NCBI GenBank assembly: GCA_002839185.1
Contig: PGXO01000009.1
Location: 1-64,000 of the forward strand
Direction: 5' to 3'
Length of the DNA stretch: 64,000 nt
Source: Synergistetes bacterium HGW-Synergistetes-1
GTDB taxonomy: Bacteria; Synergistota; Synergistia; Synergistales; Synergistaceae
Part shown: piece by piece, positions 11,666-54,202 of the stretch
Layout of the letters: the number at the start of each line of letters is the position of its first letter
Position numbering within the stretch: position 1 is the stretch's first letter
Program-made: the position numbers and the translations under genes
The notes under the pieces: model-generated
What the model saw: only the letters and a program-made list of their open reading frames with translations
Database searches by the model: none
Told to the model about the DNA's origin: nothing

Positions 11666-11780
11666 TTGTGTATGTCAGAAATATGTGGACTTAAGGTAAT
11701 GTTATTATTAAATATAATACAAATGGATATATTGTAAACTATGTAGTATTATATATGTAATCTGCGAAGGAGGTAGACAA

Positions 11781-13055
11781 ATGAGAGAACTTTTTATACC
11801 TGAAACAAAAAATCCCCCGGCAAAGGTAAAGGACCTGGGGCTCATCAGCCTTGTAATGGAAGGCGCAGGTGTTTTTAACGCAAAAAGTGGGGAGATAATA
11901 CTCCTTCCTATTGGCAGGAGTACTCTAAACAGTATTTCTGAAGACCTCGCTGATGCTCTCCTTGAAAAAAACGGGATACAACATATAGACTGCAGCGCTT
12001 CGGATGAATCCGTCCACTCCCTTGCTGAGCGCTATGTAAGGGAATATGGAGACAAAGCGCTCTCCTGGATGGCTATCTCAGGAAGAAAGTTAAAGCTTTG
12101 GGGATGGGCGAGTACAGAAGAAGATGTGAAGATGAAGACAGGGATGGCTGTGGACACTATCCGCTCTATCATGGAGCGTTACATTCCGGATTTTGACTAT
12201 CTTCTTGAGGTAAGCGCAGGTACTATAAACAAAATGGCAGGTGTCTGTTCAACGAACAAAGGGTCGCTTTATGAAATGGAAGGTCTGACTTGCCCCGGAT
12301 CCGGTTATTATTACCATGATGACTCTGCCTTCATATATGCGACTGAACCGGTGAACTCGAATCAGGAAGAGGAAGAGGTAAAAGATGTCCATACTCCGGG
12401 GGCACACACTATTCCCCTTCTTTGTGAACAGCTTTGCCTGGACCCCAAACAGACGCTAAAGGCTATGCTTTACACTGTCATTTTGCCGGATGGGAAAAAG
12501 ACTCTTCTATTTGCAATGATCAGGGGAGACAAGAATATAAGCATAAACAAGCTGACTGCCTATGTAGATTCAAAATTCAAAGGGGCATCCTTCAGAAAGG
12601 CCGAAAACGGGGAAATTGTCTCATCCTTTGGTGAGGTCGCAGGTTTTTGCGGACCTATAGGAGTCCCCGATGGAGTTCAAATGGTCGCTGACAAGTCGCT
12701 CGTGGACGGCAAAAACTTCGTGGTCGGCGGCAACAGGCCGGATTATCACAGGACAGGCTGCTGCTGGGGCAGGGATTTCAAACCTGATGTTGCAGACCTT
12801 TTGCTATTTGAGGAATCAATGCTATGCCCTGAAAACGGAACTCCTTTGACGCCGGTGCAGTTAAGGAAGATCTGTACTGTGGAGTGTTACGGCTCGGAGA
12901 TGAGAGGCGAACCTGTACTCTCATCCAGGGACAGGGACGGAGAACACAAATGGCCATACAGATGGAAGGCTGAGGTGTCTTTGGAATCCCTCATACTCTC
13001 TTTCTACGAAAAAAAAGAAAAACGCATCAATGATGCGATCTTTAACGACAAGTAG
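11781..13055 (+). CDS. Degenerate prolyl-tRNA synthetase paralogue with intact INS (YbaK-like) editing domain
   Basis: A 424-residue protein following bacterial-type ProRS order. An N-terminal remnant (MRELFIPETKNPPA, then GAGVFNAKSGEIILLPIGRS) matches the class II start, but the motif 2 region, the ATP site and the anticodon-binding end are missing. Residues about 200-340 form an INS domain: VHTPGAHTIPLLCEQL, the likely catalytic lysine in QTLKAMLY (Lys227), GFCGPIGVP, and GGNRPDYHRTGCCWGRDF. INS domains deacylate Ala-tRNA(Pro). It cannot charge tRNA itself, so a free-standing editing factor is likely. The ProRS at 52760 lacks this insertion. RBS AGGAGGT; terminator downstream. Confidence 0.8.
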   Translation: MRELFIPETKNPPAKVKDLGLISLVMEGAGVFNAKSGEIILLPIGRSTLNSISEDLADALLEKNGIQHIDCSASDESVHSLAERYVREYGDKALSWMAISGRKLKLWGWASTEEDVKMKTGMAVDTIRSIMERYIPDFDYLLEVSAGTINKMAGVCSTNKGSLYEMEGLTCPGSGYYYHDDSAFIYATEPVNSNQEEEEVKDVHTPGAHTIPLLCEQLCLDPKQTLKAMLYTVILPDGKKTLLFAMIRGDKNISINKLTAYVDSKFKGASFRKAENGEIVSSFGEVAGFCGPIGVPDGVQMVADKSLVDGKNFVVGGNRPDYHRTGCCWGRDFKPDVADLLLFEESMLCPENGTPLTPVQLRKICTVECYGSEMRGEPVLSSRDRDGEHKWPYRWKAEVSLESLILSFYEKKEKRINDAIFNDK

Positions 13056-13095
13056 ATCATAAAGATAAGGCAGTTCATCTCTTCAGGACCGAATG

Positions 13096-13124
13096 CGCAG
13101 GGCCCGGCCGGTCCTGCGTTTTTT
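13096..13124 (+). terminator. Rho-independent terminator after the ProRS-like gene
   Basis: The 9-bp stem CGCAGGGCC/GGTCCTGCG (13096-13104 with 13110-13118), 5-nt loop, is followed by TTTTTT. Confidence 0.9.
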
Positions 13125-19957: not shown

Positions 19958-21505
19958 TTGGATAGAAGAAGCGGAGTTTTGATGCATTTATCCTCTTTGC
20001 CCGGACCGTTTGGAACAGGAGGACTTGGAAGCAGCGCCGAACGTTTTGCTGATTTTCTCATGAATTCAGGATTCAGAGTATGGCAGGTTCTTCCGACTTC
20101 GCCGATAGATGGTTCTTCCTGTTATTCCCCTTACAGCAGCAGATCTGCTTTCGCAGGCAGTCACATCTTCATAAGCCCCGAGAAACTGGCTGAAGATGGG
20201 TTTTTAGATGCGGAAGAGATTGAAAAATATCATTGCACCGGTCCGGAATGTATTGCTGACCACGGCTATTCGACTGAACAGCTGAAAAATTTGATCAGAC
20301 TCTCCTGGCTGCGTTTCAAAAATGAGCCGGCCAGATACGTTGCTTTTGCAGAAGACTACCGTCTCTTTGTTGAAAAAGAGGGATACTGGCTCAGGGATCA
20401 TGCCCTTTTCACAGTGCTGAAAAAAGATTTTGAAGACCTGTCATGGAATAAATGGCCGAAAGAATTTGTCCTGAGAGATAAAGATACACTTGAAAACTAC
20501 TCTTCCCAAAAAGAGAAGAGTGAGGAAATTCAGCTGATCTGCTTCGAACAGTTCATTTTTGACAGGCAGTGGAAAGCCTTCCATAGATACTGCCTTGACA
20601 GGGATATCAGATTAGTGGGAGACATCCCTATGTTTGTCGCTTTTGACAGTTCGGACGTATGGTCAAATCAGGAATATTTTGACCTTGATCCTGAGGGGTA
20701 CCCGAATAAAGTTGCTGGGGTACCGCCCGACTATTTCAGCGCCAACGGACAGAGATGGGGGAATCCTCTTTATAACTGGGAGACGATGCGAAGGGACGGC
20801 TTCAGCTGGTGGACAGCCAGATTCAGGAAAGCGATCGAGCATTTTGACCTCATAAGGATAGATCATTTCAGGGGGTTTTCTGCGTGCTGGGCAGTGCCGG
20901 CAGAAGAAGAAACGGCTGTAAACGGGGAGTGGATCGAAACCCCCGGCAGAGAGCTTCTTGAAGCCCTCTCTGAAAATATTAGGAAAGACGGCATGGTTGA
21001 ATTGCCGCTCATAGCAGAGGATCTTGGCATCATTACAGACGATGTCAGAGATCTTATGGCTGACTTCGGGCTTCCGGGAATGAAAGTCCTCCTGTTTGCC
21101 TTTAATGGTGATGTTGGGTCCAGCCCTTATGCACCACATAACCACATTCCCGGGTCTGTCGTTTATACCGGCACCCATGACAACAACACAGTCAGGGGAT
21201 GGTGGGAGAGCGAATCGGATGAGCGGTCAAGATCGCTTATCTCAGAATACACAGGACGTGACATCAACAAAGAGAATGTTTCGGAAGTATTTACCATTAT
21301 GGCGCTTTCATCAACATCGAAGCTTGCGATAATCCCGATGCAGGATATACTTGGACTTGGCGATGCTTGTCGGATGAACGTGCCTGGAGTTGCCCAAGGC
21401 AACTGGCTCTGGCGTATGAGCAGGGCTGATCTCGAAGCATTGACCTGGGCTGATTCGGATACAACGGTCCGTTTTAGAAGACTCAATTCCCTTTTTGGAA
21501 GATAG
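19958..21505 (+). CDS. malQ: 4-alpha-glucanotransferase (amylomaltase)
   Basis: A 515-residue GH77 enzyme that disproportionates alpha-1,4-glucans in the cytoplasm. Diagnostic stretches are LSSLPGPFGTGGLG, WQVLPTSPIDGSSCYSPYSS, GDIPMFVAFDSSDVW, the nucleophile region LIRIDHFRGFSACWAVPAEE, LIAEDLGIITDDV, and the terminal YTGTHDNNTVRGWW. The start is TTG 19958, 7 nt after GGAGGT. It sits between glgB and two phosphoglycerol-transferase-like genes in one apparent operon, the next gene starting 19 nt after its stop. The pairing with glgB suggests glycogen or maltodextrin remodelling. Confidence 0.95.
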   Translation: MDRRSGVLMHLSSLPGPFGTGGLGSSAERFADFLMNSGFRVWQVLPTSPIDGSSCYSPYSSRSAFAGSHIFISPEKLAEDGFLDAEEIEKYHCTGPECIADHGYSTEQLKNLIRLSWLRFKNEPARYVAFAEDYRLFVEKEGYWLRDHALFTVLKKDFEDLSWNKWPKEFVLRDKDTLENYSSQKEKSEEIQLICFEQFIFDRQWKAFHRYCLDRDIRLVGDIPMFVAFDSSDVWSNQEYFDLDPEGYPNKVAGVPPDYFSANGQRWGNPLYNWETMRRDGFSWWTARFRKAIEHFDLIRIDHFRGFSACWAVPAEEETAVNGEWIETPGRELLEALSENIRKDGMVELPLIAEDLGIITDDVRDLMADFGLPGMKVLLFAFNGDVGSSPYAPHNHIPGSVVYTGTHDNNTVRGWWESESDERSRSLISEYTGRDINKENVSEVFTIMALSSTSKLAIIPMQDILGLGDACRMNVPGVAQGNWLWRMSRADLEALTWADSDTTVRFRRLNSLFGR

Positions 21506-21524
21506 CAGAGGAGTTTTTTTAGGT

Positions 21525-23429
21525 ATGGGGTTCTCAGAACAGAGACTTTATTATGCAAAAAAAGATAACGACCGCAGGGAATTCATTTTTTTTCTACTTT
21601 TGTTCGCCGTTATTTTCATCAAGTTTTATTTCCTTGAATATAAAATATCCATGCAGGTAACAAGATATCCTGCCTCTGCTGCTTCGTCTGCAGGAATAGT
21701 CCTCTGTCTCACTGTTGCGGTCTCTCTCTTCTGGAGGAAGCTTAGGGCTTTTTCTGCTCTTACTGTCGATTTTCTGATCTCGCTGCTTGCGGTAACAGAT
21801 CTGCTGCACCTGCGTTATTACTCGGACATGTTCACCTTCATGAACATCGGTCTTTCCGCACAGGTGGGAGAGATCGCAGATTCTGTGGCCGCTCTCATAC
21901 ACCCCTCTGACTTCCTCTATTTTGCTGATATCCCACTATTGATCTTTTATATATATATCTCGCGAAAATTCAGATCAGTTCCCTTTTTTAAAAAAGTTGG
22001 CATAAAGCGCTTTCTTGTCTCTCTGCTGCTGATCATTGTAGGAGCGCTGCCGGTAGTGTACAGGTTCTGGTCTTACGAGAAAAGGATGCCGGACGTGCTG
22101 AGTTCTATGTGGGACAGGCCAGCTGTCAGCAACAATATCGGTGCACTGACATACCATCTTGCGGATGTTAAAAACGCGGCAGGGCACTTTTTTTTCAGGG
22201 AGAAGCTCTCTGATTCACAGATCTCCGAAGTGAAAAATTTTTTTAATGAAAAGAAGAGAGGAAGATCACCTGGATATCTAAACGGTTCCGCGAAGGGCAA
22301 AAACCTTATCATAATCCAGGTCGAATCCCTCCAGCAATTTGTGATAGACCTGCGTATAAACGGAGCAGAAGTGACACCGAACCTCAACAGATTCGTAAGG
22401 GAATCCGCATATTTCAGCGGGATATACAGCCAGACTGCCTCCGGAAACAGTTCTGACGCTGAATTCATAGTCAATACCGGACTCTATCCATCTGCGTCAG
22501 GAGTAGCATATACGAGGTTTGCAGGAAACCGGTATGAGGCTTTGCCAAAGGTTTTGGCTGACATTGGATATATATCGTTAGCGCTTCACGGGGACAGACC
22601 GGGATTCTGGAACAGGCACAGGATGTATCCTTCTATGGGATTCAGCCGTTTTATAAGCAAAAAAGACTTCATAGTTGATGAAAACATCGGAATGGGCCTT
22701 AGTGATGCCAGTTTCTTCAGGCAGAGTCTCGATATTCTTGATAAGACGCAAAAACCTTTTTACGCTTTTCTGATCACCTTGACGAGCCACTACCCATATA
22801 ACTTCGAAGAAATTTTCAAAGAGGCGCAACTTAACACATCGCCGTTTGAGGGAACGCTGATGGGCAACTATCTTACGTCGATGAAGTATTTTGACGACAA
22901 GTTCGGAAGTTTCATTGAAGGGTTGAGGAAAAATGGACTTTTGGACAGCTCTGTTATAGCTTTGTACGGAGACCACACAGCTATTCCTGGCTGGGACAGG
23001 TCGAGCCTCGAAAAACTTCTAGGCAGAAGCCTAAAAAATGACTGGGAATGGAAATACATGCAGCGTATACCTCTTATGATAAAGATCCCGGGTATCCAGG
23101 ACCCCTCGGAAGATAATAAGGAAACAGCAGGTCTCATAGATCTGCCTGAGACTTTTGCAGATCTTATGGGTTTCGAATTCAATGCAGGATTCGGAACGAG
23201 CCTTTTTGATAAAGACAGAAGTGAGCCGGTAATATTCAGGAACGGTTCATTTATAACAGGCAATGTCTTTATAGAGCCCTCGTCAAGAAGTGCAAGAGAG
23301 ATGCCTGAGGGCAAAGTTCTTGATTACGGCAAATATGCTCCAATGGCCGAGGAAGTTAAGAAACGTCTCAGATACAGCGATATGATACTTGAACATGACC
23401 TGGTGCCTGAGATTGTGAGGGAAGATTGA
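21525..23429 (+). CDS. LtaS-like phosphoglycerol transferase / sulfatase-fold membrane protein (copy 1)
   Basis: A 634-residue protein with five predicted membrane helices (to about residue 190) and an extracytoplasmic alkaline-phosphatase-fold domain. Metal and nucleophile motifs are present: VESLQQF, a Ser in SGNSSDAEF where S. aureus LtaS has its catalytic Thr, LHGDRPGFWNRHRMYPSMGF, LTSHYPY and LYGDHTAIPG. Such enzymes transfer glycerol phosphate from phosphatidylglycerol to a polymer or glucan (LtaS, OpgB). The start is ATG 21525 with AGAGGAG upstream; a TTG at 21495 overlaps malQ. A homologous gene follows after 4 nt. Confidence 0.9.
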   Translation: MGFSEQRLYYAKKDNDRREFIFFLLLFAVIFIKFYFLEYKISMQVTRYPASAASSAGIVLCLTVAVSLFWRKLRAFSALTVDFLISLLAVTDLLHLRYYSDMFTFMNIGLSAQVGEIADSVAALIHPSDFLYFADIPLLIFYIYISRKFRSVPFFKKVGIKRFLVSLLLIIVGALPVVYRFWSYEKRMPDVLSSMWDRPAVSNNIGALTYHLADVKNAAGHFFFREKLSDSQISEVKNFFNEKKRGRSPGYLNGSAKGKNLIIIQVESLQQFVIDLRINGAEVTPNLNRFVRESAYFSGIYSQTASGNSSDAEFIVNTGLYPSASGVAYTRFAGNRYEALPKVLADIGYISLALHGDRPGFWNRHRMYPSMGFSRFISKKDFIVDENIGMGLSDASFFRQSLDILDKTQKPFYAFLITLTSHYPYNFEEIFKEAQLNTSPFEGTLMGNYLTSMKYFDDKFGSFIEGLRKNGLLDSSVIALYGDHTAIPGWDRSSLEKLLGRSLKNDWEWKYMQRIPLMIKIPGIQDPSEDNKETAGLIDLPETFADLMGFEFNAGFGTSLFDKDRSEPVIFRNGSFITGNVFIEPSSRSAREMPEGKVLDYGKYAPMAEEVKKRLRYSDMILEHDLVPEIVRED

Positions 23430-23433
23430 AAAA

Positions 23434-25347
23434 ATGCGGATCCTGCCGGTAAAAGAAATGGAATGCCGTGAAAAGGAACTGAGGATCTTGATCCTGATGA
23501 CACTGCTGGTATGGATCAAATTTTTCATTGTAGATTACATGATCGCGGATGTCCTCAACTGGCCCTCTTTCGGGACAATGAAGATCCATCCTGCAAGGCA
23601 CACTCTCAGGGCCCTTGCTGTTGCTGTCCCCTCTCTTGGAGCGATACTTTCGGTAATGATACCTGTTTCCCTGGTTCCGGCTAAATACAGGGGCAGGACT
23701 CTGCTGATCATTGACGCACTCTTTTCGATCCTTGTACTCACAGATGTGCTCTTTATCAGATATTACTCAGATATCTTCATATTCCACGATATACTCCTTC
23801 TTCCGCAGACAGGGCTGATCGCCAAATCCATATGGTCGCTGCTCAAATTGTGGGACGTGCTGATTTTCGCCGACATCCCGATAATGATCTGGCTGCTCAA
23901 AAAAGAACGCATAACTCTATGCTTTGAACAGGTCACGGTGAAAAGGATAGGAGTCTCGCTGCTTATATTTTTTTTTGCGGTCTTTGTGCAGATCGCCGCA
24001 GGGTACAGGCTCAGAGAACAGAGACCAAACATAATGAGTGCTATGTATGACAGACTTTCAGTCTGCGCTTGGGTAAGCGCAGCCTCTTTCCATTGGGGGG
24101 ATGTGATCTCCCTTACCGTCAGGGCATTTGAACCAGGTTATGTCCCGCAGCAGAAGATCGATGAGATGCGCGGATGGTTCAAAGGCAGAGTAAAAACAAA
24201 CATGATTTCACCTGCCAAAGGCAAAAACCTGATCATGATACAATGCGAGGCCCTCCAGCAGTTTATTGTCGGAATGAAGATCAACGGAACAGAAGTCACT
24301 CCTAATTTAAACCGTTTTGCCGAGAACTCCCTATATTTTCCAAAGACCTGGGATCAGACAGCAGGCGGCCTGAGCAGCGATTCGGAATTCATGGCCAACA
24401 CTGGTTTTTTCCCATCCGCATCTGGTGCTGCCTACACTAGGTTTGCAAACAACAGCTACAATTCTCTGGCGAAAACACTTAAAAAAGAGGGTTACAGGAC
24501 TTTTGTTGTCCAGGGAACCTTCAGCTCATTCTGGAATTGCCACAGGATGCATCCAAAGCTCTATTTTGACAGGCAGTACAGCCGCAATACCTTTCCAAAA
24601 GGAGAGGTCCTAGGTCTGGGACTGAGCGACAGGGCCATTTTCACCGAAGCGCTTAACATTTTTAAAATGACCCAAGAACCTTTCTATGGATTCATAGTAA
24701 CGCTGAGCAGTCACCATCCGTACAACTTCGAAGGCCTGGATGACGGAACTTTTCCCTTGCCTGATGAGATGAGAAAGACCCTGCTTGGTGACTACATCAT
24801 TGCAATGAACTACTTTGACAGGGAACTTGGCAGATTTCTGGAGGGTCTGAAGACCTCAGGCCTGGATCAGAAAAGCCTGATAGTGCTGTACGGGGATCAT
24901 CCCGCGGTGCCTATAGCATATAAGGAAGAAATGGAAAAGCTGACAGGAAAGAAGATCGAAGAGTCGATAGAATGGAAGGATACAAGGAGGGTGCCGCTGA
25001 TATTCCATATCCCCGGTGCTAATGGAAAAAAAGGAACCGTATTTACAGATACCGGACAGATGGATATAATGCCGACGGCTGCTGGACTGCTGGGGATAAA
25101 AATAGGTACATATTTTGGAAAGGACCTTTCTCTTGATAACGGTCCGTACCCTGTGATTTTCCGTAACGGTTCATATATTATTGATGGGGTATTTGTAGAG
25201 CCTGCCGTCAATAGAGCCACAAGGACAATTACGCATGAATTAATAGATGCTTCAGAATATGATGAAATTACTAAGGAAGTTGATCTCATACTGAGCTATA
25301 ATGACACTATTCTCGAAAAAAATCTTATAAATGATATTCTTGATTAA
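23434..25347 (+). CDS. LtaS-like phosphoglycerol transferase (copy 2, divergent active site)
   Basis: A 637-residue paralogue of the preceding protein with the same five-helix plus sulfatase-fold plan. It keeps the metal ligands in QCEALQQF and LYGDHPAVP and a Ser nucleophile position in GLSSDSEF. The FWNR motif has become FWNC and LHGD has become VQGT, so residues expected near the substrate phosphate differ. It may use another donor or acceptor, or act as a partner of copy 1. It was produced by tandem duplication or joint transfer and is translated 4 nt after copy 1. Confidence 0.88.
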   Translation: MRILPVKEMECREKELRILILMTLLVWIKFFIVDYMIADVLNWPSFGTMKIHPARHTLRALAVAVPSLGAILSVMIPVSLVPAKYRGRTLLIIDALFSILVLTDVLFIRYYSDIFIFHDILLLPQTGLIAKSIWSLLKLWDVLIFADIPIMIWLLKKERITLCFEQVTVKRIGVSLLIFFFAVFVQIAAGYRLREQRPNIMSAMYDRLSVCAWVSAASFHWGDVISLTVRAFEPGYVPQQKIDEMRGWFKGRVKTNMISPAKGKNLIMIQCEALQQFIVGMKINGTEVTPNLNRFAENSLYFPKTWDQTAGGLSSDSEFMANTGFFPSASGAAYTRFANNSYNSLAKTLKKEGYRTFVVQGTFSSFWNCHRMHPKLYFDRQYSRNTFPKGEVLGLGLSDRAIFTEALNIFKMTQEPFYGFIVTLSSHHPYNFEGLDDGTFPLPDEMRKTLLGDYIIAMNYFDRELGRFLEGLKTSGLDQKSLIVLYGDHPAVPIAYKEEMEKLTGKKIEESIEWKDTRRVPLIFHIPGANGKKGTVFTDTGQMDIMPTAAGLLGIKIGTYFGKDLSLDNGPYPVIFRNGSYIIDGVFVEPAVNRATRTITHELIDASEYDEITKEVDLILSYNDTILEKNLINDILD

Positions 25348-52759: not shown

Positions 52760-54202
52760 ATGGCTAAGAACATTACACCCAAGGAACAGGATTTTTCACA
52801 GTGGTATCTTGACGTAATACGTGTTGCAGAACTGGCGGATTATGCGCCGGTCCGCGGATGTATGGTCGTCCGACCTACCGGTTACTCAGTATGGGAACTC
52901 ATCCAGAAACATTTTGACGAGGCTTTCAAAGAGACCGGACATGTAAATGCATCGTTCCCTCTCTTGATCCCTAAATCTTTCCTGGAGAAGGAAGCAGAGC
53001 ATGTTGAGGGTTTTGCTCCCGAGTGTGCAGTAGTTACCCACGCAGGGGGAGAAGAGCTTGAAGAACCGCTGATAATAAGGCCTACCTCGGAAACAGTCAT
53101 AGGGTATATGTACAGCAAGTGGGTCCAGTCATGGCGCGACCTGCCCATCCTGATCAACCAGTGGTGCAACGTTATGCGCTGGGAGAAAAGGCCCAGGCTC
53201 TTCCTTCGTACTTCTGAGTTCCTCTGGCAGGAAGGCCATACAGCACATGCGACAAAAGAAGAGGCAGTCGAAGAAACGCTTCTGATGCTCGAGGTATATA
53301 GAAAGATCATGGTAGATGAACTCGCCCTCCCTGTACTCCCCGGAGAAAAAACAGAGGGAGAGCGTTTTCCGGGTGCAGACAACACATATACCTGTGAGAC
53401 GATGATGAGCGACAAAAAAGCGCTTCAGGCCGGGACGAGCCACTATCTGGGGCAGAATTTCGCCAAAGCTTTTGACATTAAGTTCCAGAATAAAAACGGG
53501 GAAATGGATTTCGCCCATACGACAAGCTGGGGAGTATCGATGCGTCTCATCGGAGCACTTATAATGACCCACTCGGACAACGACGGGCTGGTTCTGCCTC
53601 CAAGAGTAGCTCCGACAAAAGCTGTCATAATACCGATCTCAACCGACTCAGCCAAATTTGATGAAGAAATAGTGCCGAAGGCAAAAGAGCTTCAGGCAAT
53701 ACTGAACAAGACACTCTGCGGACGTTTCGTACAGGTGGACACACAGCAGCACCTTCGCCCGGGCGATAGGTTCTTCTTCCATCTTCAGAAGGGAGTCCCG
53801 CTTCGCCTTGAACTTGGAGAAAAGGAATTTGCAGCCGGCAAGGTCAAAGTCGTGAGAAGAGACACCGGGGAAAAGATGGAGATAGGCTGGGAAGACCTCG
53901 AAAAACGCATCCCTGAACTTCTTGTCGAGATACAGAAGAACCTATTTGACAGAGCGCTGAAATTCAGGAAAGAGAACACATACCAGGCTGCAGACATGGC
54001 TCAGTTCAGGGAAGTTCTTGAGAGCAAAGGCGGATTTGTTGAAGTCTTCTTCGACGGAAGCAAAGAAGATGAAAAAGCCATCAAGGAAGCAACAGGGGCC
54101 ACTCCCAGATGCTATCCGCTAGAATACTCCGAAGAGCGGGGCAAATGCTTCTACACCGGAAAAGAGGGAGCCCGTAAAGCCATCTTTGCAAAGGCTTACT
54201 GA
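52760..54202 (+). CDS. proS: Prolyl-tRNA synthetase, archaeal/eukaryotic type
   Basis: A 480-residue class II synthetase. Family marks are DFSQWYLDVIRVAELADYAP, GCMVVRPTGYSVWELIQ, LIIRPTSETVIG, motif 2 in RWEKRPRLFLRTSEFLWQEG, GTSHYLGQNFAKAFDI and motif 3 in TTSWGVSMRLIGALIMTHSD. The length and sequence are those of the short archaeal-type enzyme, which has no INS editing insertion. The start is ATG 52760 after GGAGGT; the longer open frame is not used. The lack of editing makes the INS protein at 11781 relevant. Confidence 0.96.
   Translation: MAKNITPKEQDFSQWYLDVIRVAELADYAPVRGCMVVRPTGYSVWELIQKHFDEAFKETGHVNASFPLLIPKSFLEKEAEHVEGFAPECAVVTHAGGEELEEPLIIRPTSETVIGYMYSKWVQSWRDLPILINQWCNVMRWEKRPRLFLRTSEFLWQEGHTAHATKEEAVEETLLMLEVYRKIMVDELALPVLPGEKTEGERFPGADNTYTCETMMSDKKALQAGTSHYLGQNFAKAFDIKFQNKNGEMDFAHTTSWGVSMRLIGALIMTHSDNDGLVLPPRVAPTKAVIIPISTDSAKFDEEIVPKAKELQAILNKTLCGRFVQVDTQQHLRPGDRFFFHLQKGVPLRLELGEKEFAAGKVKVVRRDTGEKMEIGWEDLEKRIPELLVEIQKNLFDRALKFRKENTYQAADMAQFREVLESKGGFVEVFFDGSKEDEKAIKEATGATPRCYPLEYSEERGKCFYTGKEGARKAIFAKAY

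Follow-up and report, generated by a model that had tools for sequence, protein, structure and literature searches.

YbaK is a Cys-tRNA(Pro) deacylase, and archaeal ThrRS-ed consists of the free-standing editing and anticodon-binding domains of a ThrRS. In general, ProRSs misactivate Ala, and species without the INS editing domain rely on the trans-acting protein ProXp-ala against Ala-tRNA(Pro) (PMC11286415; PMC9425024). When INS acts in cis, it depends on the anticodon-binding domain (PMC11295145). Several multi-domain INS proteins have been described in eukaryotes, including T. brucei MCP3, plant ProXp-ala with a C-terminal domain, and a ProXp-ala–ProRS fusion (PMC11286415; PMC9425024; PMC11295145). 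These proteins carry extra parts, as does the protein described here, but none of these parts corresponds to the core of a dead P-type ProRS. A search of the open-licence literature for an inactive bacterial ProRS, or a bacterial ProRS paralogue, that carries INS found no match, in agreement with the original prediction, which knew of no described family with this architecture.

The gene in question lies at positions 11781–13055 of the window, i.e., the whole 64,000-nucleotide stretch of DNA that was analysed. All features given below are on the plus strand. The gene starts with ATG and encodes a degenerate P-type ProRS paralogue of 424 amino acids, the short form of its family, as defined by its open reading frame, HHalign, a structure model, and alignment. 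A strong ribosome-binding site, AAGGAGG, was read from the sequence at 11767–11773, and the gene has its own hairpin resembling an intrinsic terminator at 13095–13119. The host genome is 2.17 Mb in size and 99.9% complete. An assembly artefact was ruled out as the source of the gene by the presence of an 80–95% identical gene in six further genomes of the genus.

Compared to the known systems, we infer by analogy that the degenerate ProRS acts like ProXp-ala and is built like archaeal ThrRS-ed, being a member of neither. ProXp-ala (PDB 5VXB) is a single-domain INS-superfamily hydrolase that, like the degenerate ProRS, would be expected to act in trans beside an INS-less ProRS; the degenerate ProRS belongs to another subfamily, which the ProXp-ala profile A2 does not recover, and carries a ProRS scaffold. 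ThrRS-ed is likewise a synthetase derivative for trans-editing beside a separate aminoacylating enzyme, and the long form of the degenerate family shares with it an editing and an anticodon-binding domain, the latter being absent from the short form. This likeness is an analogy only, since the degenerate protein is derived from a ProRS with INS and, compared to ThrRS-ed, still has a degenerate but apparently folded catalytic core. YbaK and ProXp-x (2CX5) have INS-superfamily folds, but they are single-domain proteins with other substrates and are encoded by separate genes in the same genome. We consider the 424-residue protein to be a putative ProRS-derived multi-domain trans-editing factor ("ProRS-ed") that clears Ala-tRNA(Pro), a reading to which we assign a probability of about 70%.

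P-type ProRSs with INS (TIGR00409/NF006625; PDB 2J3L, 5UCM, and 5ZNJ) share with the degenerate family the domain order, the core fold, and the Lys, Asp, and His residues of INS. In contrast to them, the degenerate family has a deletion in place of motif 2, no longer has motif 3, scores far below both cut-offs, and, in the short form only, is missing the anticodon-binding domain. The profile of 35 family members was collinear end to end with that of P-type ProRS (HHalign probability 100, E = 1.3e-68, 500 columns). An AlphaFold model of the 424-residue protein (pLDDT 92.6, pTM 0.87) gave a P-type ProRS as the top-ranked Foldseek match (2j3l, E = 2.8e-29), and VIA-align of the model with E. faecalis ProRS yielded Z = 24 with 390–401 aligned residues spanning positions 1–420, bearing out the proposed resemblance to bacterial ProRS. 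The only Pfam match was PF04073 (62.3 bits against a cut-off of 25.5, residues 205–323), with none to tRNA-synt_2b. NCBIfam models returned a partial P-type ProRS, at 90.5 bits for NF006625 (cut-off 558) and 41.2 bits for TIGR00409 (cut-off 306.7). Judged by these comparisons, the protein is by descent a relative of P-type ProRS and fails the tests of a functional one. Proline--tRNA ligase is the best NCBIfam match for 35/35 members, and the family genes are likely annotated with this name, an activity they cannot have.

The losses were defined by aligning the 35 family members with 12 P-type ProRSs in E. coli numbering. The N-terminal remnant of the class II catalytic core (residues 1–160; 11781–12260), assigned from its HHalign and structural matches to P-type ProRS, contains at residues 98/99 (12074–12075) the junction left by a clean deletion, found in all 35 members, of the motif 2 strand-loop with E. 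coli R140 and E142 (FRDE, 139–142). The motif 3 glycines G445 and G447 of E. coli are retained in none of the 35, and THEE, FxMKD, and GIEVGH have disappeared or degenerated in the family. In the alignment, the remnant of the motif 3 region occupies residues 346–424 (12816–13052) and has no anticodon-binding domain after it; Pfam likewise found no such C-terminal domain in the window protein, as the original prediction had read from the sequence. The class II core is nevertheless predicted from the model to fold as a whole, though unable to be catalytic, which suggests that catalysis was lost and the domain was not.

The INS editing domain (residues 200–345; 12378–12815) was assigned by PF04073 and by matches to the INS of ProRS structures and to single-domain INS homologues, and its description as intact in an otherwise degenerate P-type ProRS held in all 35 members. 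Lys227 (12459–12461; E. coli ProRS K279) and His323 (12747–12749; E. coli H369) are each present in 35/35, as is Asp304 (12690–12692; E. coli D350), with His in its place in the g3 lineage. G288, G291, and P292 of the glycine-proline loop GFCGPIGVP (residues 288–296; 12642–12668) are invariant in the family. Of the residues that line the E. coli INS pocket, I263 is matched in 33/35 members and L266 in 35/35. Most relatives also have all four cysteines of two CxxC pairs. The zinc site has probably been lost in the window member, since the second Cys of both pairs is replaced (CPGSG, residue 174, 12300–12302; CPENG, residue 352, 12834–12836); 41/43 and 39/43 relatives, respectively, retain these two cysteines.

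Homologues with the same deletion, which the original prediction had proposed to look for, form a conserved Synergistota family, and none of the 35 aligned members retains motifs 2 and 3. The gene was found in 8/8 genomes searched in the genus, in one of them only as a fragment, and the family in 41 of the 119 genomes of the order with at least 90% completeness. A scan of 84,980 GTDB species genomes yielded 40 family loci, all from Synergistota and all with open frames; its remaining 24 matches look like ordinary P-type ProRS (motif 3 in 24, motif 2 in 22). As the scan patterns were derived from Synergistota members, remote relatives outside this phylum could be missed. Relatives in a plasmid collection were all partial, below 60% identity, and, where annotated, ordinary proline--tRNA ligases. 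In a tree of INS domains, the family formed a single clade separate from P-type ProRS (support 100/100). The long form, of about 505–515 amino acids, is found in other families of the order and retains a recognisable anticodon-binding domain, assigned by Pfam and HHalign (HGTP_anticodon in 10 members). The short form, of about 390–425 amino acids, is found in the family that contains the window's genome and branches from within the long forms (support 95/65), which fits one loss of the domain. No partner gene was conserved in the gene neighbourhood across families. In a Thermovirga-like lineage only (L135–L142), the long form lies just upstream of a gene for a small exported protein and of dnaK and dnaJ.

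Values of dN/dS were 0.04–0.14 overall and low in every part of the protein. INS gave about 0.03–0.06 in divergent pairs and 0.22 in the closest pair, where changes are few, and the N-terminal remnant gave 0.06–0.18. The INS active site is the slowest-evolving part, and of the 48 columns with at least 90% conservation, 33 fall within residues 200–345. By these substitution rates, all parts of the degenerate ProRS are under purifying selection. A pseudogene was ruled out by dN/dS, the open frames, the invariant INS residues, the strong ribosome-binding site, and the gene's own terminator-like site.

The sole ProRS of the genome is an archaeal-type (A-type) enzyme at 52760–54202, assigned by Pfam and by TIGR00408 (560.6 bits, cut-off 437). 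It has no editing domain, as the original prediction had stated. No second full P-type ProRS was found in the genome, in which the best match to NF006625 is the 424-residue gene itself (88 bits, cut-off 558). Among the 119 genomes of the order, TIGR00408 was above its cut-off in 110, the remainder being draft assemblies in which the gene is partial or missing, and a P-type ProRS above cut-off was present in no genome. In the sister lineage f11, 3/3 genomes have a P-type ProRS and no A-type enzyme. The order in which the family occurs uses A-type ProRS, and the sister lineage uses P-type. With respect to tRNA(Pro), two genes were found with Rfam and ARAGORN, and both retain the bacterial C1:G72 pair and A73; a scan of the window itself for tRNA genes found none.

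The degenerate ProRS and ProXp-ala are nearly complementary in distribution within the order. Profile A2, which recovers C. crescentus ProXp-ala (5VXB) at 110 bits when checked on the PDB, found no ProXp-ala in the window genome; two further editing-fold proteins of that genome are nearest ProXp-x and YbaK, respectively. Of the 119 genomes, 6 have both factors, 35 the degenerate ProRS only, 39 ProXp-ala only, and 39 neither (Fisher p = 1e-4). The corresponding counts were 0, 16, 9, and 6 in the window's own family (p = 2.5e-4) and, for the same family at the genus level, 0, 7, 7, and 2 (p = 0.003). Phylogenetic pairing on the ProRS tree gave 2.0 opposite versus 0.1 same among 6 independent pairs, which is in the expected direction and not significant, as the independent events are few. 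We regard the exclusion between the two factors as suggestive. They are not strictly incompatible, since the examined members from genomes with both retain the Lys, Asp, and His of INS, and Ala editing would not be essential in those genomes of the order with neither. The ProXp-x-like gene is near-universal in the order, occurs in most genomes of both kinds, and shows no covariation. One genome of family f8 (G043; C3 and C4, L301 and L289) combines ProXp-ala with two degenerate ProRS genes that have diverged from each other.

Since the charging parts are lost and an intact proofreading domain is kept, the degenerate ProRS probably removes Ala from tRNA(Pro). In the mechanism that we propose, the A-type ProRS would mischarge tRNA(Pro) with Ala, as established for ProRSs generally, and the released Ala-tRNA(Pro) would be bound by the degenerate ProRS, with the CCA-Ala end of the tRNA entering the pocket of INS. 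There, the ester would be positioned by Lys227 and the glycine-proline loop and then hydrolysed, and His323 would help to exclude proline. The long form would choose tRNA(Pro) by means of its anticodon-binding domain, which has this function for INS in intact ProRSs. For the short form, tRNA selection, the least understood step of the mechanism, might rely on acceptor-stem contacts, on the remnant, or on docking to the A-type ProRS. The degenerate ProRS would thus fill the role that ProXp-ala has in sister genera. Counted in favour of Ala-tRNA(Pro) editing were the collinearity with P-type ProRS, the conserved INS residues, the low dN/dS, a ProRS complement of A-type only, the absence of ProXp-ala together with the negative association, and the C1:G72 and A73 identity of tRNA(Pro). 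Counted against it were the short form, which is without the domain on which INS depends in cis, the loss of significance of the exclusion after pairing, the six genomes with both factors, the genomes with neither, and the ProXp-x-like protein of the same genome, which could be an alternative hydrolase of Ala-tRNA(Pro).

The same features bear on three other explanations. The protein may be a trans-editing deacylase with another main substrate, such as Cys-tRNA(Pro), tRNA(Pro) charged with a non-protein amino acid, or more than one tRNA, its range having been broadened by loss of the anticodon-binding domain. We regard this as unlikely, though the best of the alternatives. Substrates in the INS superfamily are varied (PMC11295145), the short form is without the domain that gives INS its choice of tRNA, and residues near the site differ in places from those of P-type INS; the specificity residues, however, match those of Ala-editing ProRS, the negative association is specifically with ProXp-ala, and Cys and Abu would already be covered in the same genome by the YbaK-like and ProXp-x-like proteins, the latter near-universal in the order.

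A mainly non-catalytic role, in which the protein would serve the A-type ProRS as a structural subunit or would sense tRNA or aminoacyl-tRNA, with INS used for binding only, appears less probable still. Dead class II synthetase paralogues provide a precedent, the mitochondrial DNA polymerase accessory subunit being among the structure matches, and a complete core fold is predicted with its N-terminal remnant under purifying selection. Against such a role, the INS active site, including residues needed for hydrolysis, evolves most slowly, and no conserved neighbour points to a partner. That the gene is a functionless, decaying remnant is very improbable: the step-wise losses (the anticodon-binding domain in the window's family, two cysteines in the window member) and the absence of the gene from many genomes of the order would fit decay, but the frames are open at 40 loci, dN/dS is low throughout, and the active site is invariant even in members that share only 25% identity with the window protein. 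Compared to these alternatives, editing of Ala-tRNA(Pro) remains the preferred reading.

For the origin of the family, descent from the lineage's own displaced P-type ProRS is plausible. The original prediction held that an archaeal-type enzyme had replaced the bacterial one. The contrast between A-type ProRS in the order and P-type in f11 favours this, but the trees did not recover a grouping of the family with f11 P-type ProRS, nor did AU tests reject one (p = 0.44 for INS, p = 0.22 for full length). Taken as a whole, the earlier interpretation is partly supported; the long form with its anticodon-binding domain, the purifying selection, and the near-exclusive distribution with ProXp-ala are new. 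A tentative scenario, to which we give somewhat less than even odds, is that Synergistales gained the archaeal-type ProRS and that the old P-type enzyme was stripped into a conserved, dedicated trans-editor of Ala-tRNA(Pro) that initially retained the anticodon-binding domain and later lost it, the short form selecting its tRNA unlike INS in cis or ProXp-ala. If true, the family would provide the first example of a "ProRS-ed", one that is exchangeable with ProXp-ala, and a family with a ProRS scaffold but editing activity alone would illustrate how a cis-editing domain is turned into a trans factor upon displacement of its synthetase. The natural long and short forms permit a direct test of how INS chooses tRNA(Pro) with and without the anticodon-binding domain.

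Several further observations were made. In two genomes without the degenerate ProRS (G038:C2:306404-308339, L078; G095:C9:5868-7834, L075), ProXp-ala lies directly downstream of A-type proS on the same strand. Six near-complete genomes of genus g24 (G090, G091, G093, G099, G103, and G104) have no PF04073 gene above threshold and are apparently without INS, ProXp, or YbaK. C. difficile plasmids of about 100 kb, e.g., NZ_CP149664.1 (65451-68349) and NZ_CP033217.1 (59731-62626), carry adjacent proline--tRNA ligase genes; for one neighbour, the annotation names only the C-terminal domain of a class II synthetase. Elsewhere in the window, positions 21495–25347 encode two tandem membrane proteins resembling lipoteichoic-acid-synthase-type sulfatases, directly preceded by two glycogen-metabolism-like genes, both assignments having been made by eye only.
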